This document shows, piece by piece, positions 780-45,771 of a DNA stretch of 64,000 bases (position 1 is its first letter; each line of letters opens with the position of its first letter). The notes beneath the pieces are model-generated. The model ran no database searches, was not told the DNA's origin, and was given only the letters and a program-made list of their open reading frames with translations. The position numbers were made by a program, and so were the translations under genes. Source of the stretch: Purpureocillium takamizusanense (Eukaryota > Ascomycota > Sordariomycetes > Hypocreales > Ophiocordycipitaceae); the NCBI RefSeq assembly GCF_022605165.1, contig NC_063069.1, positions 558,001 to 622,000 on the forward strand, in the 5' to 3' direction.

Positions 780-3700
780 CGCGATGGATGGAAAGAAATG
801 GGGTTTGTGCAACTGAGGAGTAGGAAACCACAGATCGTACGAGAACCATTACCCTTATATTGCGAGGGCTACCGGTGCTTCTGGTTGGCTGGCCAGTGTA
901 CGAAACATTGGTGGCATCTCACGTGCAATAAAGCAACTGATACGTGTGAACCATCCATCAATAGCTGGGGCATCTTCTCACGGCGAAGACAAGCCCGCTG
1001 ATCGCGCCATAAGAATGCAATCGACCCATCGCGGACCCGTAGTGGAAGCGCCTCGCCTCGCGGGCCGGCCAAGGGGCCCAAAAGACGCGTTCTGGACAAG
1101 GGCGTTGCGGCATTTGCGAGCTACCTATGACTCTGCGCTGCAGGGTGAGCCTTGCTGCTCCAGTCCGGCTCTCGAGCGTCCGCAGTTGCGGAAGTGCCCC
1201 TCCGACGTGTCAACGGTCAACTAGAGACAAGCCGTCTATCTTGGAGGGAGCTGAACGGACCTGCCTGGAAGGTGCTTTTCGGGGCGGGATGTCCTTATGC
1301 GCTGAAAGGCGTAAGCCAACCACCACCGTCCATCTCGAATGATCTTTCTATGCTTGTTCATCAATGGCCTTTCCTTAACCTGAGTCTTCCAGTTCCGTGA
1401 AGCAAATGAGCCCGGGGATAGTCTCGGGAGTTAAATGCTCGCATGACCTTTCTGATAGCGTCGAGCTTTCTTCAGCTGGCCCTATGGGGTAAAAGACAAC
1501 ACTTTTCGACTTATCGAATTGATCTTGTCTAGCCTTTATGAGGACTGCGTCCGATGCCATGTGGCTATTATTCATAAAGCTAAATTGAGGTCATGCCCGT
1601 TAGCAGCGCAATCTTGTCCCATTCGTGCATTCCCCCGGCATACTGTTCTTCTTTACACAACTCATGACAGAGGTGTGTAAGTACGCCGCATCTTCACTAT
1701 TGCGTTCACGGGCATGGTTCCCGGGACTGGCTGGAAAACAAAAACAATCTCCTAAAATCCAGGATGACGGCCACCATCACTCTCATCAACGCTTTGCTGC
1801 TCATTACGGCCCGTGCGACCGCGCCGCCGGTAGATGACATGCGCGAAGTAATGCAGCGCACCGAATGCATGAGACTAAGACAGACACCATCATATGGATG
1901 TCGTTCGGCCCATGGTGAGGTAAGATATTGACGCAATACGTAATCATGAACATGGGGAGAGACGCTTCAAATGGGGAGTGACTCGGCAGCTTGATCCCGG
2001 GATTATACCACGAGTGATGACCGCCAACAGTGTATCGTCTACGTCGTACCTCATGGCAGAGCGACTGTTGTGTATGCCTGTCAAGGCCCGCCCATTTGCT
2101 AGGCGTGGAGCCGCACAGAACATCAAAGGTGTTCGAGGTTCTCGTCGACCGTGAGATACTGCCAGGTACATCACGATACATGGAGTCGCAACGGTGTCAT
2201 GCCATCTGCAGATGACAGGCCCGTGTTGGCACCATCAAACCGCAGTAGAAAAATGCCGTAAGCCGAGAGCCAGCGAGAGGCATCTGAGGACCACACCCGC
2301 CGCTGCCGCCAGTCCCTCGCGCAGCTAGTGCTTGGTCGGATGTCAGAATGCGGCCTTTTTTCTCTTCAACGTCGAGTCAGTGTTTGGCGGTCGAAGTGTC
2401 GGTCGACCCCGCAGACCGCCAACCACATTGGCTTCCTGTCTGGAGCGCCTGCCACGTCCACGCGTGCCTCGGCACAGGGCAAGAATTATGACGCCATCGT
2501 GGAGGAATGATGAAAAGGACGCGAGTCCTTTGAATCGCTGCGAAGACCCGGCAAGTGCCTGCTTCAGCAAGCCGTGTCCGGCCACTGCCTGTCGCACCGT
2601 GGTTGACGCAGGAGCCAGCATGTTGTTTCGTAATAAGACTTCAATGGCTTCTGCTGTTTTTCTTCAACACATCTTGGGCGCGCAGAGGCTCGTTACTAAG
2701 ATCGACGGCGCTGCACTTATTCACGACCCCTTCAACACGCCAGAGGATAACGTGTGACACCGCAGCCACAGCCGGGCACGAGTAATAAGAGCCGCACGCG
2801 CACGCGCCGTTGCCAAGCCGCATCGTCATACCGCAGAACGGAGCCAGGGCCATTGATGTTGCCCAGCCCAGCCCTGGCTGAACTGGGGTTACGGTGCTGT
2901 GTCTACTAAGGCAGCTCCAAGCGAGCCGCCCCTAGCGCAGTGGGCAACAACACTCGCAGGCTTTATTTAACGGCATGATTGACGACGATTGACATGGTGG
3001 CTCAACGCCGCGTGCCATCCCGCCGTCAGTTGAGCGAAGATCGCAGCAAGCCTCACACTCAAAGTTGGAGGCGGCTAGGCACCCCCCTATTCGTAGACTT
3101 GCCAAGATCCAGGCGCCAGCAGTCTGGCCCGTAATTTTTGCCGATCTGCCTGAGACATGGCCGCCTTGTCAGCAGGTGTATACGAAGAACTGAGTCGTCG
3201 CCCGCCCACCGAGCGTCATCCAGCACGTCCGGGTATACTACATACGTGCCGTCCGCCTGACTGCGGTCAGATGCCCACGTATCAAGCCCCAACCGAGATC
3301 GCCTCCGCCGAGTGATCAGAAGCCGCCCAGCCACCAACAAGTGGTACCTACTTAGTGCCGCTGCCAGCTGCGCAGGATGTAGGTCGATCGCGTTGCTCCA
3401 CCGCCTTCTTGTTCATTGCAGCGACACGTGGTGAGCGGTGCGAGTCAACCGACATGCCTCGCGCAATCGTCTGCATGCACTGTACAGTAAGTACTGTCTA
3501 TGAATCTGACATGAATTTTACTGTACTATTCGTTGCATGTGTGTCGGTGCAGATTGACGTGAGAAAGTGATTGCCCAACAGTCAAGCGCGGCGGCTGTCT
3601 CTTGACTGGCCCCAGTGACCACCCCATCGTGCAGTTGCCTCGTCCTATGTAGGGTCAATCTTGTCATCCAAGTATACTGCTGTACTGCACCGTACAAAGT

Positions 3701-14829: not shown

Positions 14830-16416
14830 ATGTACACGGCACTGTCCACCTACCGTCGATATGTTCTTTTGGTGTTTTGCATGCTGGCCATGCTAGTGAT
14901 ACTGGAGAGTTATAGGCTATACATGAACGAGGTGAATTCGTCCAATCCCATCCAGCACAAGCCGAGCAGCATCAAGCTTTTACGGAAACATTACCTGACC
15001 AAGAACATCGTCTAGTGGCCGCTGAGCAAGTCCGTGCTAAGGCAAAGACCGGCAGTGCTTGGAGGACCCAAGAGATCTCAGCTGCACTACGTGATCCCGG
15101 CCACCTCGCCAAACGATCTCTTCTGCGCCGTTGTCGCATCGGCTCTCGCCAACAGATACCCCGTACCTTTTGTCATAGGCTGGAAGGGGGAGGGCGAGTT
15201 CGACGCAAAAGCCGCGCACATTGCCAAGATACGGACGATCAAACGATACCTCGACACGTTACCTAACGGCGGCGAAGATGACGATCTAATCATGGTCGGA
15301 GACGGCCTCGACGTTATAGCTCAGCTTCCCGTCGAGATTATGATCGAACGTTATTTCCAACTTGTTTCGGACGCCGATGCTCGCCTCGCGGACCGTTTCG
15401 GTATCAGTGTCGAAGAAGCTCACAGCCGTGGGTTACGGCAAACACTTGTCTGGGGTGCTGATAAGATGTGTTGGCCACCGTTGTATGAAGAGGCTCAGTG
15501 CTCGGCTATCCCTGCATCGAACCTCGCACACAACGCACTTGGTCCCAAAACGGGCAACGGGGATTTTGTCTACGCAGACCCCAAATTTCTCAATTCGGGC
15601 TCTGTTATCGGCCCCTTGGGTGACTTGCGCAACTTCATTAATGCTGGTATAGCTGAAATGGAAGCGACATTTGATCCCGAATTCGAATATCACAACTCGG
15701 ACCAGGTGTACCTCGCCAGACTCTTCGGACGCCAAGAACTTTCTCGAGACCAACGAGTCATTCGCGCGCATAACTCAGACGTCCTAGGATCCCATTCGAA
15801 CACAGATTTCGAATCCTCGAATGCAACGGAGCACCACGTCACCATCGATTACGAATCGGCTCTTTTCCAAACCGGATGCTACTTTGATAGATGGATGCAT
15901 GACCTCGATTTCAACAACTCAGATAATACCGCAACTGTTTCGGAAGATGTGTTTGACCAGGGCGAAACATTCAAGCCATATCTAGTTCAGATGCCCGCCA
16001 ACGTCTACCAGTCCCTGCTCCGAATTTACAACTCGATCGCTGGGCATCAATCTCTGTCCGCACAAGAGTGGATTGGAAGTCTGAAGTTGGCTACCAATGT
16101 CGTTTCTAAGAATATCTTCGGGTCCTACCACGCAACATGCAACAAAAGGAGACTCCTTGACCGGTTCAGATCCTTTTGGTTTCACCCGTTCATACAACCA
16201 TTGATGACGGCGGCCTTTCGGGACACCCACACCGGCCAGCTCATCACAGAAAAGCTGATTAACGGCCGTGAGTGGGTGTACAAGACATCGTATCCGGCGG
16301 ATGCAAGCAGTACGGACCAGCTGGGTGGGGTGTTTACCGACTTCGAGGCTGAGAGCTTTATATCCTACACAACCCTCTGCTCGCAACATTTGAACATTTT
16401 CAACCAGACACATTAG
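14830..16416 (+). CDS. Type II membrane glycosyltransferase, PLOD1-3-like GT domain
   Basis: A predicted Golgi/ER type II glycosyltransferase resembling the sugar-transfer domain of procollagen lysyl hydroxylase/galactosyltransferases. The ATG at 14830 starts a short cytosolic tail and an anchor (YVLLVFCMLAMLVILESY). The lumenal domain begins LHYVIPATSPNDLFC, with PVPFVIGWKGEG, then DDDLIMVGDGLDVIAQLP, where the acidic cluster DGLDV takes the place of the usual metal-binding DGYDV. WGADKMCWPP and NSGSVIGPLGDL are also typical of the family. The 84-nt interval 14932-15015 is read as an in-frame intron (GTGAAT donor, CCTGAC branch, TAG acceptor). Retaining it places a TAG stop exactly at the acceptor, giving only a 62-residue peptide. 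The spliced product is about 500 residues. The sugar and acceptor are unknown. Confidence 0.82.
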
Positions 16417-16824: not shown

Positions 16825-18113
16825 TCAAACCGTAATCTCCTTGGGGATTCTGCAGCAGTCCACCGCTGAGCAGAAGTTGACATCCTCGCTGGCCTGGGTT
16901 GCCGCCGGCAGCGTCTGTCGAGCTGGCCATATCTCACAGCCCGCCTCCACCTCTCGCTTGTGATGAGACGTAACTAGATCCCGGACCGACTTCTGGAAGA
17001 AGAGCGGCCCCTTCTCCATCTTGGGGTGCAGCTCTCCATTGACAAAAACGCCAGCATTCAGGTTCTTCTGTGCATTTGCGCACAGGTACTTGTCCTCGGA
17101 CATGATTCGCTTGTACATGGCGTCGATGACGCCAAAGTCCTCATCGCTGGAGTTCTTGTTCCTGTAGACTTCATACCTCATTGCCGATGTTGTCGGCCCG
17201 CTCGGGACGAACCTCTGGATGAAGAAGAAGTGCGGCCTGCTACTTGTCAGTGACACCTCGATGGAGAAAAGGAAGTGGAGAAGACGTACGAGATGTTCAA
17301 CGATGAGTTAGGGAAGTAATAGGTCGCGGCTACTCTGAAACCCTTCGCGATTTGCTCTTCTGTGGGACTGCCAAAGTGTTGAATGTGTCCTCCATTGGTC
17401 TCCACCCAGTAAGAGCTGAGATCCGCGATGGTCGGGATGTCGGGGTGTGTTGTCTTGCAGTGGTAGCACTCGTTGTAGTTGTCCGCCAGAATCTTCCAGT
17501 TGTACTCGCCTTCCATCTCCCAGGTGTGGTCGAACTGATACTCATCAAAGTTGTAGTACTGAAACCTGGTCTGCTTGTCGATGCCGGCGAAGTCATCCTC
17601 CCATGAAATCTCGGGCTTTGCGCCGCCATCGAGATTCACCCAAATGAACCCCTTGTCATCGACATGAACGTGTACCGGCAAGAGGTTGTTCTTAGACTTG
17701 TCAAAGCCTGGCATGTCTTGATAGCCTGGTGCCTTGGCGAGCTTGCCGTTGAGACCGTACGACCATCCGTGGTACTTGCAGGAGAACATGAAGTTGTTGC
17801 CCTTGTCTTCAGTGACAATGGGAAAGGCGCGATGTCTGCAGACGTTGTGAAAGGCGTTGATGTTGCCATCACGATCTTGGCAGATGATGAAGTCGAAGCC
17901 AGCAACATCATACCGTATCCAGTCTCCGCGTTCCGGGATCCGGTGCTTGTGTGTTGTGAGAAGCCACTTCTTGGAAAAGATGGCCCTCCTCTCCAGCTCA
18001 TACATCTCCTGGGATGTATACCATGAGGCCGGTAGCGCCCTGACTGGGGCACTGTCGTCGTCGGCAGTCGTGGCCCGGCCCAGGCCTAGATAGCTCTTGA
18101 GCAACTGCGCCAT
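16825..18113 (-). CDS. Rieske non-heme iron oxygenase, glycine betaine/choline monooxygenase type
   Basis: The alpha subunit of a Rieske oxygenase; relatives oxidise choline or remove a methyl group from glycine betaine, proline betaine or carnitine. Two exons (17290-18113 and 16825-17236) join as ...LNIS-PHFFFIQRF into 411 residues. The [2Fe-2S] ligands are C92-x-H94 and C112-x2-H115 (CRH and CKYH). The iron site is DNYNECYHCKTTH with D211 as the likely bridging residue and H218/H223 as ligands. No targeting signal is obvious: the C-terminus is EITV, so it is probably cytosolic. The neighbours are a sarcosine-type oxidase, a dimethylglycine oxidase-like enzyme and a regulator, so glycine betaine demethylation is the best guess. 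Choline monooxygenase or stachydrine demethylase are alternatives. No ferredoxin-reductase partner is in the window. Confidence 0.88.
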
Positions 18114-18240
18114 AGCAAATGGATGCACAACAAAGTCAGGGGCGGCACAATTTAATCGGTACAGAAATGATTCGCGTTGCTTTCTATGGGCTACTCTTCT
18201 TTTACCCGGAGAGACCGTCCTTCCTTTTTATCTTTTCGCC

Positions 18241-18275
18241 ACGAGCTCGTCAAGACGGATCTAGAGCCCGGGCTC
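18241..18275. promoter_or_regulatory. Pair of perfect palindromes in the Rieske promoter
   Basis: ACGAGCTCGT (18241-18250) and GAGCCCGGGCTC (18264-18275) are each perfectly self-complementary and lie 13 bases apart, about 130-160 bases upstream of the Rieske ATG. The second contains the CCG/CGG triplets that zinc-cluster regulators often bind, so these are candidate operators. Confidence 0.4.
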
Positions 18276-19869
18276 CCTCCAGTTTGATAACATTGTGTCG
18301 CACGGTTGTAAGTTGGTTGCAGAGGTATCGTCAGCTGGCCAGGCACACGGCGACCAAAAGCCGGTCACATGATCGGCATTCCGCCATGCTCCGTTGTTGA
18401 CAGCCCGCACAAACACGGCGAGTCTGTGGACGGATGGAATGCCTCTGGAACACACATCCGAAGCAGTTCACCAAGCGCGGGCCAACCTTTCCCCCCCACG
18501 GCGGCGCGTGGCACCAAGGCCGGCGCGCATATCGGACCTGAACGCCCGGCCACGATGGTTTCCCTTACGCAACTGACCCCGTACATGGCGACCGTCCCGT
18601 CGGCAACTGCTGCCCGAGCTGCCCAAGATGGCTTCAAAATGGCCACCTGTCACGGCGCTTTGGCCGTAATTGCACGGGAGTGAGTCCCGTCATACAGTGG
18701 CGAGACGCATCGTGCATGTAGCAAGTCGGTCATCGGAGGATGCACTGCCAACGTAAGAGCCAACGCAACAGTCGGCGAGACGCCCTCGCCGTGGGCAGCG
18801 ACGTCGGGCAGTCTTGATACGACATCTTCCATGGCGCGGCTGTCACGATGGCACTCAAAGGTGTTGGGGACTGTCCACGTGGTCTCTTAAGCCGTGTGAA
18901 ACACCCGCCACTTAGCTATTTTATAGTTCACGATATGTGTGTCTAAGGGGGTCTACGGCCGACGATACAGCTTTCATTATGCTCGACTCCGGTTCACGTT
19001 GCCGGGCGATGGTGGTGCAATGGTGTGACCTCCCCATCCTCGTCTTCGATCTCGCACTCGCGCATTCAGCCTCAAGCTTGTGTAACCTTGGGCGCCAGAA
19101 AGCTTATTTTGGAATGGTCTCGATCTTTATCGGCTGTGTTTTCAGGCCCATCCCAAGCGCTTGGGAGGGCCGACGTCGGACGCAGACCCTTTCCCCGCAT
19201 CGCCCTTCTTCCTGTGCAGCCAACGCGGAGCGCCCGTGTCGAATACTGGGAGGCGCGCGCAGACGTTCGTAGTCAGGGCCCTGGAATGACCCCATTTGCA
19301 GGAACTTTGTGCGAGGGCATCAGGGGACGAGATAATAAATTGGAAGACACTGTGGTGCCCAGTGACGAGCGCGAGTCAACGTAAAGGCGCTTACATATCC
19401 TTCTTGGCTTGACGGTCTCTGCAAACATCGTCCCAGCCACCATCATCGATGTTATTTGTACGTACGTAAAACACCAGCACGGAATCACGGCTTCGCCACC
19501 TGGTGCGTGCTTCGTCGCAAGACGCTGCACGGAGTGGGGGTGCGGTCAACGCAGGGTTGGGGAAGCGCCACCCGTCCCCAGATATTGCGGGGGAAGAAGC
19601 AGGGACCCCTTTGGCTTCATGTTGGGGTGTGCCAGCCGTCCAGCGCCCGCTGGGTTGACCGGCAGTTGGAGAAACCGAGCCGTGGCAGCGTCGTCGACAA
19701 GGATGCTATGCCATTTGAGGGAATGCGATGGCACGCGTTGCAGTAGCGTGCAGTGTTCTGTGCGCGTGTGCTTGTCTGTATCGGCGGATGAACGCCCGGG
19801 GAAGCTGTCTTGCACAGCCGTCAGTGCAGCGTCCGGTTCTGTACCTCGATAGCATCGAGCACAGGGTAA

Positions 19870-19919
19870 AGAGATAACCGTGGGACGTTCCACGTATGAG
19901 GAGATGCATGGTTATCTCT
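19870..19919. promoter_or_regulatory. Inverted pair of GATA sites flanking a near-palindrome
   Basis: AGAGATAACC (19870-19879) and its exact reverse complement GGTTATCTCT (19910-19919) face each other across 30 bases. Each holds a WGATAR-type element, the site of AreA/Nit2-class nitrogen regulators. Between them is GTGGGACGTTCCAC (19880-19893), nearly palindromic around ACGT. The block lies about 360-410 bases upstream of the oxidase ATG. Confidence 0.5.
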
Positions 19920-20280
19920 CTCCCGGTGTGGCTTCACGTGACCGGTTGGCCGGAGACTTTGGCCGATGCCGGGGCAGGCCGACGGAGCACATAAGTTGCG
20001 GCGCCGATGCAGGTTCACGGTGTGCTCGACGAATGAGGCTGTTACGATTGAAGCACTCGGCCACGTTCCCGAGGCTAAGGTCTGAGTGACAAGTTCCATC
20101 ACGAAGCTGGTCTGAGCAGTGCGACATCCAAGGCCGTTCTGTACCCCGTACCTGTAGGTTGGGTTGCACTCTTACATGTACTTGGGCTCGGAGCTCTCTG
20201 ACTATGTACACTTGCTAACACCCCTCTTTCAGTGATAGCAGGGGCGCCATTTGCTCTTGTTGCATTACGCATTTCGCACC

Positions 20281-21717
20281 ATGTCCTCAGAAACGTCGTC
20301 GTTTCTCATCATTGGTGCAGGCGTCTTTGGAGTGTCCACGGCTTACCATTTAATCAAAAAGTATCCCAGTGCCTCGGTCACACTCGTGGACCGGGACGCA
20401 TTCGACGCGGAAAGCCGTGTCGCCGCATCGTGGGACTGGAACAAGTGTATTCGTGCAGACTATGAGGACATCGTGTACTGCCAGCTAGCGCTGGAGGCAC
20501 AAGATGTTTTCACGTCCGATCCGCTCTGGATGCCCTACTTTCATGAGACGGGGATATACTGGATTTGCCGCGGCGACTACGCCAAAGATGTCATCAACAA
20601 CTTCAAAAAGCTTGGAAGAAAGGTCGACATTTCCGCATTCCCTATTTCTGAGGCCCGAAAGATGTACGACGGTCTCTTCGACGATGCAGATTACTCAGGC
20701 GCTACAGAGGTTCTCATCAACAAAACCAGTGGCTGGGCAGCTGCAGGAGACTGCTTACGCGCCGTAACGCGCAAGGCGATCGAGCTTGGCGTTCAGTATG
20801 TCACAGCCGAGGCCTCGGGCCTTCAGTTGGACAAGGACGGCCGCTGTTGCGGCATCAAGACAACGACAGGAACGGCATTGAACGCCTCACACGTCCTTCT
20901 CTGCACTGGCGCGTATACGCCCAAGCTCCTGGAGTTCAGTGCTGCAAGTAGCGGACTCGCCGATCTCCGTGCCGGATCAAGAATTGTTGCGGGTGGCATC
21001 ACGACGGGAATGTGGAAAGTTGACGACAAATCCTACGAGAAGTTCGCATCCATGCCCGTGGGTTTTCAGGGCTACACTGCGGACGTAGGTATGTTACCCC
21101 CCTTACGCTGCACGATAAGCGCCGGTCAGTCAACTAACGGCTGAGCAAGGCGGCTTTATCGGAAGCCTGCCACCCACCAAAGATAGAGAGATGAAATGGT
21201 GGGGCCAGAAGATCTTCAAGAACACCCGAGAGGTCCTGCCGGGCAGATTTATTTCAGCGCCGCCTAATGAGCGAGACTACGCGCAGTGGAAGGTGTCCGG
21301 ACCGCTCAAGGAAGACATTCGATACGCCAGCCATGTCTTCTACGGCAAGAAAACCGCAAACTGGACGCAAGAGAAACATCGCATCTGCTGGTGAGTTGAT
21401 GGGCCATCAGGACGACTGGGTCAGATAACGTGCTGAGCTTATTTGTTATCAGGGATGCGTTCACCTCCAACGGCGACTTTATCATCTCACCGCACCCTGC
21501 CGCCAAGGGACTCTACGTCGCCACGTGTGGCTCCTTTCACGGCTACAAATTCTTCCCCGTGCTCGGCAAGTATATCATACAGATGTTGGAGGGAACGCTG
21601 GCCCCTGAGCTCGCGGGCAGGTGGGCGTGGGACCGAGAGCGACCAGATCCTTCCCTGAATCCCGAATATCCGCGGGTAGAGATGAAAGACTTGTTAGACG
21701 TATCTGCGAAACTCTAG
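20281..21717 (+). CDS. Peroxisomal FAD-dependent N-methyl amino acid (sarcosine-type) oxidase
   Basis: A monomeric sarcosine oxidase/fructosyl-amino-acid oxidase-family flavoenzyme, which oxidises a secondary amine and releases H2O2; sarcosine would give glycine and formaldehyde. Three exons (20281-21088, 21150-21390, 21453-21717) join in phase into 437 residues. The FAD dinucleotide-binding fold is FLIIGAGVFGVSTAYHL near the N-terminus. The motif HRICWDAF contains C349, which corresponds to the cysteine that holds FAD covalently in this family. FIISPHP and SFHGYKFFPVLGKY are conserved C-terminal blocks. The protein ends in AKL, a canonical PTS1 peroxisomal signal. It is divergent from the Rieske gene and precedes the regulator. 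Related enzymes act on L-pipecolate, saccharopine or fructosyl amines, so sarcosine is inferred from context. Confidence 0.9.
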
Positions 21718-22811
21718 ATGCGAGTAGATGAAGGCTTTGATAAGAACTTCCTCGGTAGGCTAATTCCATAATATGGCACGAGTTGGAAGTTGCATGAATG
21801 TGGCTGTGCCTTTGGGTCATATTATGTGTATCTGTGCATCGATCAGTGCGAAGAGCTGAGGGAGGCGTCGAGGGACCACAGATCACTGCCAGGTGTGCAT
21901 GGACCATGTGCAGGGCCTGTGGCGTCCAAGAGATCCACGCGTCGATGCGCAATGCGGAGTCGGAGTGTTCACTGATTAGGGGGCACCTGGGACCCAACCA
22001 CTCATGAGTGGAAGAGCTCGATCGTCCCGCGCGGAGACATGGACCGAACATCGCCAGGGCACCAACAAGAAGACAGCATTTGCCAGCTAATCAAGGATCA
22101 AGGATTGCAAACAAAGAAAATGCCCTACAGTACCATCTCGGCTATCACAAAAGCCGTCTGATCACAGGTCGCTGGGGGCCCCCACGGATGGGAGGTCTAG
22201 TCCGGCAGTGCATCGTGATGATCCGTGCATCACGGGACGGAGGGCGACAGCTGTTCTCTACTACTGCGGCCTGCCGCCGCCCGCTAGGCACCCCCTGCAA
22301 CTTATCGCCGCGGGTCTGGGGCAACACTCGGAGCACGACCCCTGAGCCCTCGACCGCTGGCCTAGCGAGACACTGACAGTGACACACGCGCGCAGACGCA
22401 CACACACACACACACACATATATCCGACACGTTATCGGCCGGTCCACGTGCCACGATTGCTGGCAAAAGTCACAGCAAAAGGATGCCGTGCAGGCAGCCT
22501 ACAAGTAGGTTGGTTGCAAGCCTCAGCGCACCGCCGTGGCGCCTCGCCGGGCCCATTCTGGCTATCTGGGGTGGCTAGCCTAGATTTGGCATCGATTTGG
22601 CAACCCCGCGTGGGCACGGCACCTTTGGGGCACCTTAGGACCAGGCCAGGAGCAGTTGGGCTCTTCTTCTTCAAGGGGCGATAACCCGGCTCCAGAGTGG
22701 TGTGCTGCAGGTGTCATCGTGGCGTCGCCCAGTGAGAGGGGGAGAGATGTAATAGACTTTTGGTATTTATTGCATCCGCACCCCATCTGAGCTTGCTCTC
22801 GTCAACGTCAC
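21718..22811. other. Intergenic region with a CA microsatellite; promoter of the regulator
   Basis: No gene is evident in these 1.1 kb. It contains (CA)10 at 22399-22418 and an E-box-like TCCACGTG near 22444. The right end should be the promoter of the Zn2Cys6 gene. Confidence 0.5.
22399..22418 (+). repeat. (CA)10 microsatellite
   Basis: About ten uninterrupted CA units followed by TATATA, upstream of the regulator gene. Confidence 0.85.
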
Positions 22812-25296
22812 ATGGCCCAGATTCCGTCAAGCACCATCATGGCGCCGCCGCCGCCAGAGGACGGGGCCAGCTCTCGCGGGAGACGGCGGTCTCACCACGC
22901 CTGCCTCAATTGCAGGTTCGTCATTTGATCGGTCGATGATGATGTTGGTCGTCGTCACCGCCAGCGCGCCACTGACGGAGACGCAGGCGAAAGAAGACGC
23001 GCTGTCCCGGCGAAAAGCCAGCCTGTTCCAGCTGTCTTCGGCTGAGGCAGTCTTGCTCGTATCCCGCTGCCACGCGAACATCGCACGGCGACCGATCGGT
23101 AGGCACACTCGGAGCACCGCATCGCCATCTCACAAAGGACGTGTGTCGCTGACGGTCAGCAGGACGAGAGGCTCGCGCACTTGGAGGAGAAGCTGGATAT
23201 CCTTCTCAGCGGCAGCTTGTACATACGACTCCGAGCCGTGCTCCTTCCCGCGGGCATTCTGACCGGGTTCTCAGGGCGAGCAGCCATGCCACACGACAAG
23301 AACACGCACTCGAAGAGGCCGCCGACACGTCGGAAAAGTCACACTCGGCCACGCCGCCTGGCCCTGAGCTCAACAGGCCCCAGAGCCATGGCCGTCTCCC
23401 CTCTGTGATGCCTGAGTCGGACGAGTCAAGTCTGCGGCCCAGCCCGTCGGACATTGCCGTTGGCGTTGGTCTTTACTTCAAGTACTGCCACAGGCAACCG
23501 ATATGGTGCTTCTCGCGTGAAGATGTCAGCGACTACAGCACCCTCCCCGGAGAGCTTGCCTGCAGTATTATGGTACTGACGTCCCGGTTCTCAGAAAAAC
23601 GGGACCAGCTGCAGCGTTACGGCGACAGCGCGAAGCATCTCGTCATGCTTCGCCTTGCAAGTGGCACGGTGGACCTGACCACCATTGAGAGCATGTGCCT
23701 GCTCTCCTACTCGTCTTTTATAGGTAGGGAGCAGTGCATGTCAGAGCCTGAGACTGCATGAACGCTGATGCTAATCATGATGCAGATGGAAACTTTCACC
23801 TCGGCCAGTTTCATCTCGGCCTCGCGTTCCAGCTTTGCCGGACAGCCATGCTGGACTTGGAGTCGGTGTATACCGTGGACGACCCAAACACAGAAAGGAA
23901 GAAGAGGCTCTTCTGGAGCCTTCAGCTTCTGGAACAGTTTTATGGCCGTCAGAATGGGCTCTTGAGCATCCCCACGGACAGATGGCGACCGTACCACACG
24001 CAATCGCAGAGCAGTGATCGAGGGGAGCTGGACCATAAGGCGCCACCGTTACCACGAGACGAGCTTGGGTGCGCAGACCCCGACGAGTCCGGGATCTGGA
24101 ACACGAGCGTGCATCTGGCATGGGTCTGGAGCCAGGTGCGCAAGTACGTTTCCAACTGCGCCCACAACATTCTCAAGGAGCCGTGGCGCCACGACTCCAT
24201 GTACGCCAAGGTGCTCTCCGATTTCATGGAAATTGAGAATAGGATCCCCATATGCCACCGCTACGACTCTGCCAAATTCTACAAGCGCAAGGTGGAAGAA
24301 CTAAAGGTTAACCGGGACTACTGGGCGCCATGGCTGAAGGAGCAGTTTACATACCACGCCATCCCCACGGTCTTGAACCACCCGTTCCTGTACATTGTCG
24401 GCGCACAGCACAACCCCAACTTGGCCATTCCAAATACGTTTTGGAGGCGATCTTCCGAGCTGGCCCTCCTTCATGCCACATGGATTGCTCGCATGATCGA
24501 CATGGCCGTCGACAAACAGGTGCCGCTCGCGGACCCCTTCTTTGGCCATGCGGCCGCCATCGCAGCCACAGTGCATCTGTACTACTGCTGTGCAGCCGCT
24601 CCCAGGCTCAAGTACAAGTCCAACACGGATTTCGTGAAGTGCAAGAGATTCCTGAAGCGATTCGTGCACACTTCTGCTGCCTGCAAGGCCCTGGTATGAT
24701 ACCCGCGAAGTTTGGAGGGCCATTTCATGTTCCTCGTGTCGATTTTGGTGCTGACCCAAGGCGCGTAGGATCGCAACCTCGATAAGATGACCCGAATGGC
24801 GGCGGGTCCTGAGAGCATGGACATGGAGGACTGGATGCCCTCGAAGATTTATCTCAGCGTGCCCCTGATGTGGGAGATATTGCAGTTCAGCTTCACGGAT
24901 GACTCGCACGAAGCATCGACTGCGGGTTTGCTGGATGCTTCGCTCACACCCCCCGTCGCGGCCGACGATGCGAGCGAAGGCTCAACCCTGGAGATTATAG
25001 TCGCAACTTCGCCCGAGATCAGCATCAATACGGCCGATGGCGGACAGGAGGCGCCGACGATGTCCTTCAAGGCCTCTTCGCATTCGCATTCCGCGCGCGA
25101 TTCGCCTTGGAGCACGTACCGTGACGAGGACAGCCTGGCTTTCCACTTCACCCCGTGGCTGTATGCCGATTCTTCTCAGTTCATTAGCATGGGCGACATG
25201 GGGTACTATGACACGCAACCCGCCATGGGCGAGTCGCGGAGCATGGCGTGGTGGGAGGGGGACAACTTCAGCAACATCATGTTCAATCACTTTTAG
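22812..25296 (+). CDS. Zn2Cys6 transcription factor of the catabolic cluster
   Basis: A nuclear zinc-cluster activator with a fungal-specific regulatory domain. Six exons are inferred: 22812-22915, 22987-23098, 23160-23218, 23275-23723, 23786-24693 and 24769-25296. All phases agree and give 719 residues. The DNA-binding cluster has C31-x2-C34-x6-C41-x6-C48-x2-C51-x6-C58 (CLNCRRKKTRC, then CPGEKPACSSC). The first intron (GTTCGT donor) splits the cluster after CLNC. A short heptad-like linker follows (ERLAHLEEKLDILLSG). The middle-homology domain contains FHLGLAFQLCRTAMLDLE and ERKKRLFWSLQLLE. The C-terminal tail is Ser/Asp/Ala-rich and acidic, suggesting an activation region. It sits between the sarcosine-type and dimethylglycine-type oxidases, so it is the likely pathway-specific regulator (inference). 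Confidence 0.88.
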
Positions 25297-29019
<3,723 letters not shown>

Positions 29020-29760
29020 TCTAGGCACAGCATATACAACTATTTTATGTCTTTTTCCATTCAAACAGGAACTCTGCCCAGTGTTCATGTTATAGTCATA
29101 TCTGATACTCATATGCTGGCGCTGGCTGCTGGCGTGTCAACTGCCTCTCGTTGCTTCACACTCGTGCTGCTCAAAGGGGTTGGCGATATATGCAGCCAGT
29201 AGTCCACTAACAATAGTCTCTTTTGCCGGTATGACCTGGAAAACTGTCAGTGATCAAATGGTATAAAGTAAGAGTTGCTTCGGCAGACATGTCCAGGTCC
29301 TTTGTAAAGCCGCCCCAAGATTTAGGTTCAATCTTGCTCCCTCAAGCTAGCGCGGTTAACTCCAAATCAAGCGCCCCGGATTTGACGCTGATGCGCAAAT
29401 CACAGAGCCTGAAATCCGACACTACAGCCAAAAGAAGCAAATGGATTGCAACCGCGGCGACCCACCGCTGTGAGATGGCCAAAGGGCGTAATTCGAGCCG
29501 CGCTCAGCTATCCACAGGTGCAGTTGCCCGTCAAATATTGGGTGGTTTTAGCCGCGTTCCGTGTCTTTTACGTACTTGTAGCCTGTAAGCCGAGGCCGGC
29601 CAACACTTGAAGGCATACACGGCTCCGAGTTCGGGAATGGCGCTCCAAGAGGTCCAGCTCGACCGTATTAGCATTGGGGAATCCGCTTCTTGATCATGAC
29701 CATTCCTGCACCATCGCACCGTCTACCGTCACCCGATTTACCAATTTTGAAGTGACCAAC
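29020..29760. other. Intergenic region
   Basis: About 740 bases between two same-strand genes. No credible gene; it should hold the terminator of the oxidase and the promoter of the transporter. Confidence 0.55.
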
Positions 29761-30749
29761 ATGGCCATGGAAGTCAACAAAGAGCACGGAGGGGAGCCGA
29801 CAACAACATCATTGGCACCACAAGATGTGGGCTTCGCCGCCATGAGCTCACGCCTGGCCGATCCTGTACCTACCCTTCAGTAGACGGTACGGTCCGAATC
29901 GTCCATGTTTGCTAATCGACTCAGGCTCCTCTCGCCATGGGCGGCTTTGCCACGACCCTTCTCACGGTGTCACTGGCCATGATGAACTTCCGCGGCGTTA
30001 CCGTTCAGACAATGTTTGTCGGTAATCTGTGTTTCGTGGCTTGCGTTGGGCTGCTCATCAGCGCTCAATGGTTCATGATCAAGGGCGACACGTTTTCGTA
30101 TACCGTTTTAACAGCGTTTGGTACGCATGTGCTCCTTTCAATCACCTGAGAAATTGAGGGCCGCCCTGGGTCTAGGTTTGAAATCGGGCAAGTCTCACTG
30201 ACTCCTGGTCTTACAGGGCTCTTCTACGGCGGCTATGGCGCTGTCATGATACCCTGGTTTGGCGTTGTCGATGCGTACGGCGGCTTCACACCCGAGTTCT
30301 ACAACGCGTTCGGCTTCTTCATTCTCAGTAAGAGCAAGACTACATCCGCCATCTTCTTGTAAAACTTCTGACCATTCACACCTAGTTTGGGGGGTACTCA
30401 ATATCTTTTTTCTCATCGCCTCCATCAGACTGTACGTTCCCACACCAAGGGCATTCTTGGCTGTACTCACACGATGCTAATGACGCCAACTAGGAGCATT
30501 GTCTATGTTCTTGTGTTCACAGCAATCGAATTCTGCCTCGTTCTCGACGGCGTGTCCCAATTTGTCAAGGCAGATGGCCACGACGAGACGTATGCGGCGA
30601 TGCAGAAGGCAGCCGGGGCATTCGGCTTCATTGCCGGCTTGCTGGGGTATTACTGCACCGCGCACTATTTGTGCGAAGATGCGCTGGGTTTCTCCGTGCC
30701 CATGGGCGACACGTCCCGTTTCTTTGTCAAGCGCCGGAAAACCAGCTAG
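29761..30749 (+). CDS. GPR1/FUN34/YaaH-family transporter
   Basis: A six-segment membrane protein of the acetate uptake (Ady2/Ato, AcpA) family, which moves acetate and has been linked to ammonium release in yeast. Five exons (29761-29865, 29925-30120, 30217-30327, 30386-30431, 30494-30749) join in phase into 237 residues. The family signature after the soluble N-terminus reads DPAPLAMGGFATT, a variant of NPAPLGL. Membrane segments include TLLTVSLAMMNF, MFVGNLCFVACVGLLISAQW, LFYGGYGAVMIPWF and FGFIAGLLGYYCTAHYL. The Asn of the signature is Asp here, and the usual Gly-Leu is Ala-Met, so acetate specificity is not assured. It is the last gene on the same strand as the demethylation genes. It might handle a carboxylate substrate, acetate or ammonium linked to the pathway (inference). 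Confidence 0.88.
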
Positions 30750-37876: not shown

Positions 37877-38343
37877 GTACATACAAGAAGAGTACGAACG
37901 CAGTGGAGCAGATTGAATCCCTTGCTCGTCCCTCGATTGATTGATTGGCTTTTCTTCCCTTTTCAATGCTGCGTGGGTTGTGTGGGCAGACACGCATGAT
38001 CTTGCTTCATGTTGACTGACCGCACGAATCAACACCCCCCTCCCCTCCTTGGAGAAAAAAGCACCCTTTTGTCTCGCGTCGCTTTGCCGTGCTCGCGTGC
38101 TCACCTGCCCCCTTTATTTCGTTCCGTGGCTTTGCTTGCCGGCTGCTCGCTTGCCCTGAGCGTGACCTGATCCTTTCTCGTTTCGAGTTCAGACCCTCTC
38201 TCTTTCTCTTTCTCTCTCTCCTCCCCCTCCCCCCTCTTTGCCTCATCCCCCCCCCCCTTTTCCTCGCTCGGTTCGTTGCCGTATCCCGTCGTCGTCGTCG
38301 CGCGCCATCACGACCAGCAGCGAGCCCGCCGCCCAATACTGCC

Positions 38344-38349
38344 ATGTGA
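38344..38349 (+). promoter_or_regulatory. Minimal start-stop upstream ORF (ATG TGA)
   Basis: An ATG immediately followed by TGA lies 62 bases before the main ATG at 38412, in a fair context (TGCCATGT). Start-stop uORFs can stall ribosomes and damp translation. This holds only if the transcript begins upstream of it, which is likely given the long CT-rich leader. Confidence 0.5.
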
Positions 38350-38411
38350 AGCACCATTTCGCACCGTCCTTACCTCCCCCCTCCTTGTCGTCGTCGCGCG
38401 CGCCGATCGGT

Positions 38412-41045
38412 ATGGAACAACGACCCTCGGGCCGCGGGCGTGGCCTCGCCCTGCACGTCGCCTCTCGCCTTCGCGGCCTCCGACGCCTGGCACTGGCCAC
38501 GGGCTCGCGCTTCACCAACTGCCGCTTCGTCTTCGCCTTGTCGATGCTCGCCGTCCTCGGCGCCAAACTGATACACATCTACACCCACCTGTCGGCCTTG
38601 GCAACCGTCTATCTGGTGCGATGGGGATACTCCTTCTTCGCGCAGGACATGGTCCTGCTCATCATCTTGCGCCTGCTTCTCGACAGCTGGCTCTTCTCCC
38701 CCCGCAGCTCGGGCTCTCTGCGATGGATTGCCTCGTGCCTCGCGTCCTTCTTCGTCGGAATCGTCATCTTCCTCAACGTCATCAACATCTGCTTCTTCGT
38801 CGTCAGCGGCTCCGAAATACATTGGCGCAACGTCGGGCTCGCTGGGGATGCTGCCGGGCGTGCGCTTCTCCTTTCCGGCCTCGTCTCGGCCCTCCTCGTC
38901 ACGGGCGCCCTGATCCTGCTTTCGTGGCTCCTGCAGGACATTCTGTATGCCGTCGTGGGATTGCTGGTGGACATTGTTAGTTGGCCCATCGCCCCTCGCG
39001 CTCGCGCCCGGCTCTGCAGAACCAACTTCCAAACCTCGACCGCCGAGTACACCGAGATACCCCAAGGCGACCTCGAATCCGCCGCGAAGATCGAGGAGCA
39101 GGAAACTCCCCAACACTCCCCACGATATGCCTTCATCGACGGCGTCAAAAGCTGGCCCTGGGCCCGCATATTACACCACGCGTCGTATGCCCTGGCCGCC
39201 ATCGCCCTGCTCTCGCAGGTCATCCTGTGGGCACTTCGACCTGGTGACAATTCTTTGTTGTTCATGTCGTGGACTCCGGCACTGCTCCCGTTTGTCGATT
39301 TCAAAACATCAACCGCGAATTTAGACAACGTCGTCGTACAAAACGCCACGAGCATCTACCACGGCTGGAAGGATCGGACCGCTCTTCGTGATCCGATTCC
39401 CTTCTCCTGGCTACCGGAAGACTCGATCGCAGGCTTCGAGGATTGGTACGATGGCAAAAAACATTATTCAGCAGAGGCCGACCCCCTTCGAATCTCGAAC
39501 CTCGACGAAAAACTTCTCCCCGAGTTGAACAACCTGAAGGACGTGCCCATCCGGCACATCATGGCCATTGTGCTAGAAAGCACCCGGAAAGACGTCTTTC
39601 CTATCAAGAACTGGGGCATCAATGCGGCACGCCTCCGAGATTCCTGGGACGAGAAGGAATTCCCTCCCAAGGCGCTAGAACGCCTCAAGACGCTTACACC
39701 GACGGCCAAGTACCTCACGGGCGATTACGACGATCAATTTGAGCGCCCCGAGTCGGAGAGAAATGGGACAGGGCGAGGCGGCATCAATTTCAACGATGCG
39801 TACACGACATCGACCTACACTCTGAAGAGCTTGGCGGGCTCACTATGCGGTGTCATGCCCATGACGGCCGACTTCAATCTCGAATACCAGCACCACATCT
39901 ACCAGCCATGTTTCCCACACATCGCAGCGGCGCTTAACACGCTCGAGCACACCGACAACGGGGGGCACGAATTCGGCGGGTACAATTGGACATCAACCTT
40001 TATGCAATCCGTTACCTTGACCTACGACAACTTCGGCCACCTGATGAAGAAGATTGGGTTTCCCGAAGAGGGCCTCATCGACAAGGAATATCTGCAGAGC
40101 GGCGCGGCCAAGTTCGGACGCGTTACCCTGCCAGATGTGAATTACTTTGGTTTTGAGGAGACGCCGCTCGAGGATTACATACGGGATCAATTCGAAACGG
40201 CCAAGAAGAACAACGGCCGCGCGTTCATCACCCACGTTACGAGCACGAGCCACCATCCGTACGCGATGCCGGAGTCGGAGGAGTATGTGCCCCTCGGCAA
40301 GGGTTTGGACGATTTGTCACACTATATTAATGCCATTGGCTACGACGATCGGTGGCTGGGCAAGATACTCGGTTTCTTGGACGATCTTGGGGTCGCAAAT
40401 GAGACCTTGGTCATCTTTGTCGGCGACCACGGCTTATCGATTCCAGAGAATGACATTCTGGCCTCATATTACAATCCCAACAAAGCAAACAACCACGTCC
40501 CGCTCGTCTTCTCGCATCCGAAATTACCCCCCATTACGATCAACGACGCCGTCTCCACACAGTCAATATTGCCGACCGTGCTGGACCTGCTCATCGAGAC
40601 GGGCTCCCTATCCGGCTCCGCAACGCAGGCGGCCAAGGACCTGCTGCACAACTACGAGGCTCAGTCCCTCCTTCGGCCCACGCGCCAGTCGCACCACGCG
40701 CAGCCGACGTCGGGCCTGCACTCGTCGGAGGAGGAGCTGGAGAACTGGCAGCTCACCAACATCAACCCCGGTCGCGCCATGCTGGGGGTTCGCGATGCGC
40801 GACACAAGCACTGGCGCATGGTGGTGCCGACGGTGGACAATGTCGAGTGGCGCTTCACCGACACGAAGCGAGACGACCGCGAGGCCCACCCCATCGTGGG
40901 ATTCAACTTTGACATCTTCAAGAAGCAGGTTGGGGAGCAGCACGGAGACGAGGCCGCGACATGGGTGGAAGAAGGCGCTTACGTGGTGCGATGGTTTGTC
41001 GAGGAAAATAGCAGGCGTTGGCGGTATGGGCCTTACAAGGAGTAA
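38412..41045 (+). CDS. Polytopic membrane protein with LtaS-like sulfatase-fold domain
   Basis: An 877-residue intronless protein with several N-terminal membrane segments followed by an extracytosolic alkaline-phosphatase/sulfatase-superfamily domain, the layout of bacterial lipoteichoic acid synthase and phosphoethanolamine transferases. The start is the ATG at 38412 (MEQRPSGRG); the frame is open further upstream but without ATG. Membrane segments include FVFALSMLAVLGAKLIHIY, MVLLIILRLLLDSWLF and FFVGIVIFLNVINICFFVV. Metal and nucleophile motifs are visible: LESTRKDVFP (E389 and S390/T391), HVTSTSHHPYAMP, and FVGDHGLS (D672/H673). The closest biochemical roles are phosphodiester or glycerophosphate transfer to a lipid or glycan, but fungal members are uncharacterised as far as I know. 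It converges on the DUF676 gene. Confidence 0.85.
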   Translation: MEQRPSGRGRGLALHVASRLRGLRRLALATGSRFTNCRFVFALSMLAVLGAKLIHIYTHLSALATVYLVRWGYSFFAQDMVLLIILRLLLDSWLFSPRSSGSLRWIASCLASFFVGIVIFLNVINICFFVVSGSEIHWRNVGLAGDAAGRALLLSGLVSALLVTGALILLSWLLQDILYAVVGLLVDIVSWPIAPRARARLCRTNFQTSTAEYTEIPQGDLESAAKIEEQETPQHSPRYAFIDGVKSWPWARILHHASYALAAIALLSQVILWALRPGDNSLLFMSWTPALLPFVDFKTSTANLDNVVVQNATSIYHGWKDRTALRDPIPFSWLPEDSIAGFEDWYDGKKHYSAEADPLRISNLDEKLLPELNNLKDVPIRHIMAIVLESTRKDVFPIKNWGINAARLRDSWDEKEFPPKALERLKTLTPTAKYLTGDYDDQFERPESERNGTGRGGINFNDAYTTSTYTLKSLAGSLCGVMPMTADFNLEYQHHIYQPCFPHIAAALNTLEHTDNGGHEFGGYNWTSTFMQSVTLTYDNFGHLMKKIGFPEEGLIDKEYLQSGAAKFGRVTLPDVNYFGFEETPLEDYIRDQFETAKKNNGRAFITHVTSTSHHPYAMPESEEYVPLGKGLDDLSHYINAIGYDDRWLGKILGFLDDLGVANETLVIFVGDHGLSIPENDILASYYNPNKANNHVPLVFSHPKLPPITINDAVSTQSILPTVLDLLIETGSLSGSATQAAKDLLHNYEAQSLLRPTRQSHHAQPTSGLHSSEEELENWQLTNINPGRAMLGVRDARHKHWRMVVPTVDNVEWRFTDTKRDDREAHPIVGFNFDIFKKQVGEQHGDEAATWVEEGAYVVRWFVEENSRRWRYGPYKE

Positions 41046-44249: not shown

Positions 44250-45771
44250 TTACATGATGATGCGGCCCAGGCTTCGATTTGAGCCAAAGTCCTCATCAGT
44301 GACCACGTTCCTCATGACCTGATGGTAATTTGCCCCCGGAGTTACGACTCCCAAAATCGCAGGCGTCGTCGTCTCTGCGCACCCAGCAATCGGCACTCTC
44401 CTCCCACAGACGGCCAGAAAGCCCAACAGCCCAAACAGAACGGCTTCCTTCGCGCTCGGATCGAGCTTCATCGGGGCATCATCAAGCTTCATAACCCTAG
44501 CCCCCGAAAACTCGGCCTGCAAGTGCCTGAGGATGTTCGGATTGTACGCTCCACCTCCGCAGATGTAGATTTCGTCAATACGCTGGCCTTCACCCAAGAG
44601 CGGCACGACAAGGCGCTTGTAGGCCCGGGCAATCGACTCTGCCGTAATTCGGGTGATGGTCGCAACTATCGCCGTAGGGGCCATCCCCAGCGCTTGCATC
44701 TCTGCGACGAGCTTCCGCGCCACGTCGTCGGAGAACAGCTCGCGGCCAGTTGTCTTGGGCAGTGGGGCTTGGAAGTAAGGCTCCGAGTTCAAGAAGCGGT
44801 CCACGAGGGCGGAGTCGATGCTGCCCTCGCCGTCTAAGCCAAGGGCTCCGTTGTGATCGTAGTGCAGCTGGCCGTTGCTGATGATTCGCATGGCGGCATC
44901 AATTAGCACGTTGCCTGGGCCCGTGTCGAAGGCCAGATAAGTCGACTCGGGCATGGCGGTCTTCAGTTTCGTTGCTGGAAGAACCGAGGCGTTACCTGAC
45001 GTTGACGGGGTCAGCGTAGTCCGCGGTCGGGGTAGCACATTGTATGGCAAAGCAGGAACACAGCAAATTTCAGCAAAGGTAGGCCTACCAATCCCTCCAA
45101 TGTTTTGACTGATCCTCGTCTTCTCAGGGTGTGAAAGGAGGCCTGCCTCGAAGAACCCAGCGAGCGGGGCGCCTTGTCGCCCAGCAGCAAGCTCGGCGAC
45201 GCGGAAGCCACTCACTACAGTCCTGCAGCAGTGTTTAATCGCAGCGTCAGCGCGGTCTTCCATATCCTGAGCGACGCTTCTTCCTCACTTCTGAGTATCG
45301 TGTGCAATTACTGCAGGCTCGGCCATCTGCAGAGTTGATCGATGTTTTCCCTCGGGCTGGTGCCAGAGTGTTTGGCCGTGGCTGGCGATGATGTCGACCT
45401 CATCCAAATCGACACCGGAGTCACGAACGGCACGAGAAAACTCCCTTCCCAGAGCAAAGTTGAGATCGCAAATTTCGGCCAACGTGGTGCCCGCATCTGC
45501 TTGGTTCGGTCGGCATAGTCGGAGGATCTGTGCCCGAAGGTCCGGATTCACTGGCACCTCGGTGTACGACAGCAATTCGATAGCGACATCGCCAGATGAG
45601 GGCTGTGACGATATTTTACAGAGAGCCACATCGATTCCTGAGAATATGTTAATGCCTGTGAAGTGACCTTGGCAAGGGGCAATGGCATATCATTGCACCA
45701 TCAAGATGCAGGCGTTACTTGCCATCAATGCTCGTCCCACAGTTCAAGCCCAGCACCTTCAACGTGACCAT
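44250..45771 (-). CDS. anmK: Anhydro-N-acetylmuramic acid kinase (AnmK-like)
   Basis: AnmK phosphorylates and opens 1,6-anhydro-N-acetylmuramic acid, a peptidoglycan breakdown product, to MurNAc-6-phosphate. Four exons are inferred: 45723-45771, 45289-45637, 45089-45222 and 44250-44995, giving 425 residues. The N-terminus MVTLKVLGLNCGTSIDGID matches the bacterial GTSxDGxD phosphate loop. IIASHGQTLWHQP, FRVAELAAGRQGAPL, SQNIGGI and FDTGPGN (D201) are further signature blocks, followed by PKTTGRELF. The first intron appears to be GC-AG (GCAAGT donor), the only choice that keeps frame. A third, 93-nt intron is in-frame and splits IGGI-GNASVLP. Fungi have no peptidoglycan, so the gene is probably of bacterial origin and used to salvage bacterial wall sugars (inference). 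It is divergent from an MFS transporter. Confidence 0.9.

Follow-up and report, generated by a model that had tools for sequence, protein, structure and literature searches.

Five intact genes of Purpureocillium takamizusanense, lying side by side at 16825-30749 of the window (the whole 64,000-nucleotide stretch that was analysed), probably form a pathway for scavenging nitrogen by the oxidation of glycine betaine, an osmolyte of plants and animals, to glycine. They encode a Rieske oxygenase, a sarcosine-oxidase-like flavoenzyme, a Zn2Cys6 regulator, an N,N-dimethylglycine oxidase (DMGO) and a GPR1/FUN34 transporter. The chemistry of the cluster is most likely a familiar one in a setting new to it, and its Rieske enzyme differs in type from what had been expected. 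The original prediction, a route from betaine through dimethylglycine and sarcosine to glycine, is still the best reading, given that the DMGO is clear, that the enzyme genes are linked elsewhere and that the genome has genes for converting choline to betaine; the parts of it that described the Rieske enzyme as GbcA-type and the pathway as complete had to be given up.

Gene content of the cluster

The window is part of contig 2 (5,812,699 bases) of the 35.6-Mb, 14-contig genome of this fungus, a member of the Ophiocordycipitaceae in the Hypocreales, and the interval runs from the stop of the Rieske gene (16825) to the stop of the transporter gene (30749). Introns were placed manually, guided by GT..AG sites and the open frame; the spliced models were all open, and a Pfam search confirmed the family assignment of each of the five proteins. 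The Rieske oxygenase gene lies on the minus strand (16825..18113, exons 18113-17290 and 17236-16825) and encodes a 411-residue protein with the PF00355 and PF00848 domains, which we propose to be a glycine betaine N-demethylase. Across a divergent promoter region (18114..20280), the flavoenzyme gene reads on the plus strand (20281..21717, exons 20281-21088, 21150-21390 and 21453-21717; 437 residues), and its model agrees in every letter with P. takamizusanense JDV02_001995. The plus strand also carries the six-exon Zn2Cys6 transcription factor gene (22839..25296, exons 22839-22915, 22987-23098, 23160-23218, 23275-23723, 23786-24693 and 24769-25296; 710 residues, PF00172 and PF04082), the DMGO gene, a single exon free of introns (26512..29019), and the GPR1/FUN34/YaaH membrane transporter gene (29761..30749, exons 29761-29865, 29925-30120, 30217-30327, 30386-about 30428 and 30494-30749), whose product has about 236 residues, the donor of exon 4 being uncertain. 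All five genes are present, contiguous, and in the order and within the limits that had been predicted. The additional claim that no other gene lies between them held for eight of the larger open reading frames in the gaps (103-155 residues), which gave no Pfam match at E 0.1, and leaves room for small or orphan genes.

An exon-by-exon search of the genome detected at least one Ring_hydroxyl_A gene, at least one FAO_M (DMGO-type) gene and at least three GPR1/FUN34 loci. Since one gene was found for each of the first two families, neither the Rieske oxygenase nor the DMGO is one member chosen from a large family.

Linkage of the enzyme genes in other fungi

Contigs and locus tags were compared among the best 120 matches of each of three homologue searches (Rieske, DMGO and flavoenzyme), a shared contig being judged by equal size and name (the names agree save for one pair that has no name). 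Two or more of the three enzyme genes occur together on at least 30 other contigs (pairs: 10 Rieske-DMGO, 15 Rieske-flavoenzyme and 11 flavoenzyme-DMGO), and all three are found together on three of the 30. Of the 13 contigs with comparable tags, 12 have the genes at a distance of one to four tags: they are neighbours in Claviceps citrina, C. sorghi, C. maximensis, Acrodontium, Endocarpon and a Chaetothyriales strain, two apart in Monosporascus GIB2, three apart in Monosporascus CRB-8-3, Monosporascus MG133 and Neoarthrinium, and four apart in Rhinocladiella. The order in Cosmosporella is Rieske, flavoenzyme, one gene, DMGO, the same succession as in the window; a prediction made before the flavoenzyme matches were seen, that the flavoenzyme tag would fall between the other two, held in this species, the only one with tags for all three. 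The thirteenth contig, from Metarhizium rileyi, has tags 79 apart.

The conserved co-location that had been proposed as a check was therefore seen for the three enzyme genes, though not universally. At least 10 named species (Conoideocrella, Aspergillus germanicus, A. undulatus, A. aurantiobrunneus, Nemania serpens, Arachnomyces, Ilyonectria robusta, Elsinoe australis, Exophiala viscosa and Vermiconidia) seem to hold two of the genes on separate contigs, which counts against the betaine reading and would fit a chance neighbourhood in which the genes share a place and not a pathway. The number of contigs with two or more of the genes and the short distances between their tags make such a coincidence highly improbable. 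The cluster is real and partly conserved across fungal species.

The dimethylglycine oxidase and the flavoenzyme

By sequence, the identity of the DMGO is clear. The 835-residue protein gave a full-length match of 1261 bits to Arthrobacter globiformis DMGO, and mitochondrial dimethylglycine dehydrogenases trailed far behind at 313 bits. The DAO, FAO_M, GCV_T and GCV_T_C domains are present over the full length and the folate-site Asp is kept; the aspartate that is replaced by alanine in structure 3gsi is present in the fungal protein. The dimethylglycine oxidase-like enzyme of the original prediction was thus borne out. In a FastTree phylogeny of 168 rows (32 labelled fungal, 50 labelled bacterial), all 32 labelled fungal rows fell into one 88-row clade (support 100), the other 56 rows of which are unlabelled, with six named fungi among them. 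All 50 labelled bacterial rows were placed outside that clade, the nearest being of the Friedmanniella and Microlunatus type, and every bacterial locus in the tree belongs to Actinomycetota. The tree is best explained by an old transfer of the gene from an actinobacterium to fungi.

Both the DMGO (SKL) and the flavoenzyme (AKL) end in PTS1-type tripeptides, which were scored against a list of peroxisomal tripeptides and are a sequence signal from which import is predicted. Tripeptides of this list end 113 of the best 120 flavoenzyme homologues. Among the best 120 DMGO homologues, 19 end in a listed tripeptide, 22 in the less certain HKL or HRL, and 65 in LRG, which is the C-terminus of the bacterial and of many fungal copies. 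All members of a 33-row fungal sub-clade (support 99) that includes the window's gene end in SKL, SRL, HKL or HRL. Given the LRG ends in bacteria and the peroxisomal-type ends throughout this one sub-clade, the signal was probably gained within fungi, and the DMGO gives an indication of how an enzyme from bacteria came to be fitted to a eukaryotic organelle.

The assignment of the flavoenzyme as a sarcosine-type oxidase survived in part. The protein keeps the Arg and Lys of monomeric sarcosine oxidase, but it scored 56.5 bits against the monomeric sarcosine oxidase family TIGR01377, below the cut-off of 479.65, and its closest solved structures are fructosyl peptide and fructosyl amine oxidases (117 bits, with the match in two separated stretches), the match to monomeric sarcosine oxidase being much weaker; this proximity to fructosyl oxidases counts against the betaine reading. 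In the top alignment, oxidase 5t1e has Gly opposite Arg58 of the flavoenzyme. Arg58, Cys349 and Lys382 have aligned counterparts in the monomeric sarcosine oxidases of two actinobacterial loci (L053 and L065), and all 20 fungal homologues sampled retain them. We take Arg58 and Lys382 to be substrate residues and Cys349 to be the flavin-linking cysteine, sarcosine-binding roles assumed from monomeric sarcosine oxidase.

Class of the Rieske oxygenase and the proposed first demethylation

Aligned to CntA, the Rieske enzyme has the features given for group V (quaternary ammonium) enzymes in the available text of PMC7948474 and PMC10952381: the CxH/CxxH motif of the cluster (C92/H94 and C112/H115), the 2-His-1-Asp iron ligands (H218, H223 and D323), the bridging Glu (E215) and the Cys-X-X-Cys pair (C216/C219). 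Its closest solved relatives are CntA (PDB 6y8j) by sequence and CntA and Stc2 (3vca) by fold; identity to these enzymes is about 25% or less, and a shared substrate is putative. According to the available text of PMC7948474, an aromatic residue at CntA position 203 marks group Va (carnitine/choline) and Asn marks the demethylases of group Vb (GbcA/Stc2). The reaction expected of a group Va enzyme is C-N bond cleavage or hydroxylation, with carnitine, choline or benzalkonium as the substrate. Tyr213 aligns with this position, so that the group Va residue is present and the group Vb Asn absent, and the residue is aromatic in all 119 readable sequences of the best 120 fungal homologues (113 Tyr, 6 Phe). 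A GbcA-type (group Vb) identity was rejected on two grounds: the protein scored 141 bits against NCBIfam NF058607 (cut-off 670), and it has Tyr where GbcA and Stc2 are reported to have Asn. The NF058607 cut-off alone is weak evidence, as an Arthrobacter Asn-type protein adjoining a DMGO also scored just 391. With respect to the CntA pocket, F258 has no aligned partner in the fungal enzyme and F319 is replaced by Met. The group Va residue and the absence of these pocket residues both tell against the betaine reading.

The uniformly aromatic residue would suit a choline monooxygenase, which would convert choline to betaine aldehyde or trimethylamine; the cluster would then handle choline, and dimethylglycine would arise from some other enzyme. 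Many of the best 120 fungal homologues carry this name in their sources, and in the available text of PMC5816127 and PMC6157903 the yeast enzyme CMO1 is needed for choline use and is thought to make trimethylamine, a proposal (PMC5816127) that also speaks against the betaine reading. Compared by description with the fungal choline monooxygenase-like proteins, CMO1 among them, the Rieske enzyme of the cluster differs in standing beside a DMGO and a sarcosine-type oxidase. The available text of PMC6157903 moreover presents the fungal CMO-like proteins as uncharacterised and without the choline-binding residues of the true plant enzyme, CMO2. A function in choline oxidation is rendered unlikely by the rest of the genome, which already has a choline oxidase (413 bits to 2jbv, C-terminus ARL) and a betaine aldehyde dehydrogenase (536 bits to 2wme, C-terminus AKL) on contig 3, separated by about 3.5 kb; a search of the genome for a betaine-homocysteine methyltransferase found none, and the step from betaine to dimethylglycine would be left empty. 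The single Rieske enzyme is therefore the one candidate that the analysis found for that step.

A choline oxidase and betaine aldehyde dehydrogenase pair of the same kind was reportedly described in Aspergillus by Lambou et al. in 2013, and A. fumigatus is said to convert choline to betaine; that pair serves betaine synthesis, whereas the steps proposed here lie below betaine. When A. nidulans is on choline, the DMGO AN8654 and the betaine aldehyde dehydrogenase AN1430 are up and betaine accumulates, according to the available text of PMC4830055. What appears to be a table in the available part of PMC5545021, of categories up in Colletotrichum infecting wild-type tomato, includes DMGO, sarcosine oxidase and two Rieske proteins within a long mixed list of oxidoreductases. 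No enzyme for the first demethylation of betaine in fungi emerged from the literature searched.

Actinobacterial loci offered a comparison. Motifs were read in the DNA fetched for 49 loci with a DMGO protein from a genome scan, some of which end at contig ends. A group V Rieske motif was present in 27 (14 Asn-type, 13 Phe-type); none was seen within the fetched DNA of the other 22, which counts against the betaine reading. The Asn-type loci, all of them from Arthrobacter or Pseudarthrobacter, have a GbcB-like reductase gene (14 of 14), a PurU gene (14 of 14) and a BCCT transporter gene (13 of 14). In the Phe-type loci, a monomeric sarcosine oxidase gene adjoins the Rieske gene in 11 of 13, seven have a choline-oxidase-like gene and five a betaine-binding protein gene; a GbcB-like gene was seen in the fetched DNA of none of the 13, some of which end at contig ends. 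The contig 3 choline oxidase and the choline-oxidase-like proteins of the seven loci share 53-56% identity, and the combination there of such a gene with DMGO and an aromatic-type Rieske gene argues further against a choline monooxygenase. In the Actinoplanes locus L053, a choline-oxidase-like gene, a betaine ABC transporter, DMGO, sarcosine oxidase and a Phe-type Rieske gene stand in a row; choline oxidation is apparently already covered, which makes the Rieske gene the obvious choice for the single step still unassigned. L053 resembles the fungal cluster in its three adjoining catalytic classes, in the aromatic residue at CntA position 203 and in having no GbcB-like gene in the fetched DNA; it differs in the branch of its sarcosine oxidase and in the absence of a peroxisomal signal. 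Fungal and Phe-type Rieske proteins are about 26% identical, and the likeness is treated as analogy rather than as demonstrated orthology. By this analogy, demethylation by the fungal Rieske enzyme stays likely despite the aromatic residue.

The route might instead serve another methylated amine, such as stachydrine, carnitine or dimethylated amino acids, in which case the substrates of the DMGO and the flavoenzyme would be related N-methyl compounds. Neither the fungal Rieske family nor that of the flavoenzyme has been characterised in the literature searched, and in the fold model stachydrine demethylase scored nearly as high as CntA. Such a role is nonetheless quite improbable in view of the full-length DMGO, which is very close to an enzyme of known substrate, and of the recurrence of this functional trio in actinobacterial loci, the betaine-binding protein gene being present in 5 of the 13.

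Proposed pathway and its relation to bacterial betaine catabolism

The betaine pathway that we infer would begin with betaine taken from outside or made from choline by the separate choline oxidase and betaine aldehyde dehydrogenase. The Rieske oxygenase, probably cytosolic, would convert betaine to dimethylglycine and formaldehyde. Dimethylglycine would enter the peroxisome, where, beside catalase, the DMGO would produce sarcosine and H2O2, the methyl group passing to folate or being released as formaldehyde. The sarcosine-oxidase-like enzyme, in the same compartment, would then yield glycine, formaldehyde and H2O2.

The bacterial GbcAB, DMGO and sarcosine oxidase route likewise consists of three successive demethylations, and its DMGO is a true homologue of the fungal one; in Arthrobacter-type loci the Asn-type Rieske gene, the GbcB-like reductase gene and DMGO occur together. 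In contrast, the fungal Rieske enzyme does not show the GbcA signature, no reductase gene adjoins its gene, the sarcosine enzyme comes from another branch, two enzymes bear peroxisomal signals and a Zn2Cys6 regulator is added. Compared with CntA and Stc2, the fungal Rieske enzyme retains the iron, cluster, bridging Glu and Cys-pair residues.

A broader proposal, which we advance tentatively and consider somewhat more apt to fail than to hold, is that fungi and actinobacteria have a second kind of betaine demethylase, with an aromatic residue in place of the Asn of GbcA, so that the published rule by which this residue tells demethylases from C-N cleaving enzymes fails. The fungal enzyme would be fed by an unlinked MOSC-fused reductase and would act upstream of two peroxisomal oxidases, one of them encoded by a gene of bacterial origin whose peroxisomal signal was acquired once the gene was in fungi. 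The rule by which quaternary-ammonium Rieske enzymes are sorted would thereby be called into question, and, if the betaine reading is true, a large family of fungal proteins, labelled choline monooxygenase in many databases, would be given a function. The cluster supplies a candidate enzyme and regulator, and the analysis a candidate reductase, for the first fungal betaine demethylation.

Electron supply, regulation and transport

The five cluster genes include no dedicated reductase beside the Rieske oxygenase, which counts against the betaine reading and makes "complete" too strong a word for the pathway. A genome search found two Fer2 genes, one on contig 4, which we read as a mitochondrial-type ferredoxin, and one on contig 2, about 0.85 Mb from the cluster, in which MOSC, YiiM 3-alpha, NAD-binding and Fer2 parts are joined. 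The best PDB matches of the latter were 6laa (130 bits), which the matched range suggests is a fusion of a P450 with a reductase of this kind, and phthalate dioxygenase reductase (118 bits); against GbcB it reached 45.7 of 500 bits. The finding of one Rieske oxygenase and one Fer2 reductase of the phthalate dioxygenase type in the genome suggests that the two are partners, with electrons most likely passing from NAD(P)H through the MOSC-fused protein, although other donors are possible given 11 FAD_binding_6 matches in the genome, a number that also weighs against the betaine reading.

The intergenic DNA of the cluster contains 19 HGATAR sites, which we take to be the GATA-factor binding motif, where 8.2 were expected by first-order resampling. 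Their density is 3.6 per kb, compared with 1.2 per kb outside, a figure that includes coding DNA. The divergent promoter between the Rieske and flavoenzyme genes has 8 sites against 2.7 expected, a number reached by none of 230 overlapping 2167-base windows outside the cluster. The gap between the DMGO and transporter genes has no GATA site, which tells against the betaine reading. The enrichment fits nitrogen control by a GATA factor, under which the Zn2Cys6 protein would act as the pathway regulator.

The transporter scored 132 bits against PF01184 (cut-off 25). Members of the GPR1/FUN34 family are known to carry acetate and ammonium, and the gene is therefore not evidence for betaine uptake; the probable cargo of its product is ammonium or a small acid, not betaine.

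A candidate reductase and choline-oxidizing genes

Our search of the P. takamizusanense genome detected a single gene encoding a phthalate-dioxygenase-reductase-like Fer2 protein, a MOSC-YiiM-NAD-Fer2 fusion reductase on contig 2 (open reading frame 2122-3603 of the stretch C2:1440500-1448500, L086). We regard this fusion protein as a candidate partner of the cluster's Rieske enzyme.

Choline oxidase and betaine aldehyde dehydrogenase genes are neighbours on contig 3 (C3:2204000-2213990, L085), and both products end in peroxisomal signals, ARL in the oxidase and AKL in the dehydrogenase. Among the best 120 fungal homologues of the cluster's Rieske protein (P0001-P0120), hydrophobic or aromatic C-terminal tails are frequent (LVW, LAW, IAF, VAW, and LAF); these tails do not constitute a canonical peroxisomal signal.

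The actinobacterial locus L053 (4598-14604) combines a Phe-type Rieske gene and a choline-oxidase-like gene with those for dimethylglycine oxidase and monomeric sarcosine oxidase, and similar gene sets occur in the actinobacterial loci L041, L050-L052, L054, and L063. No GbcB-like reductase was found in the fetched DNA of these seven loci, which represent an unassigned type of putative betaine locus.

Other open reading frames in the window

The frame adjoining the cluster (15016-16416, plus strand) matched PLOD glycosyltransferase below threshold (26.2 versus 27 bits) and was taken to lie outside the cluster. The frame at 44253-45284 on the minus strand contains an anhydro-N-acetylmuramic acid kinase (AnmK) domain (147 bits); the AnmK family is associated with cell-wall recycling in bacteria, and this frame resides in a fungal genome. 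A sulfatase-domain frame of 959 residues occupies 38166-41045 on the plus strand.
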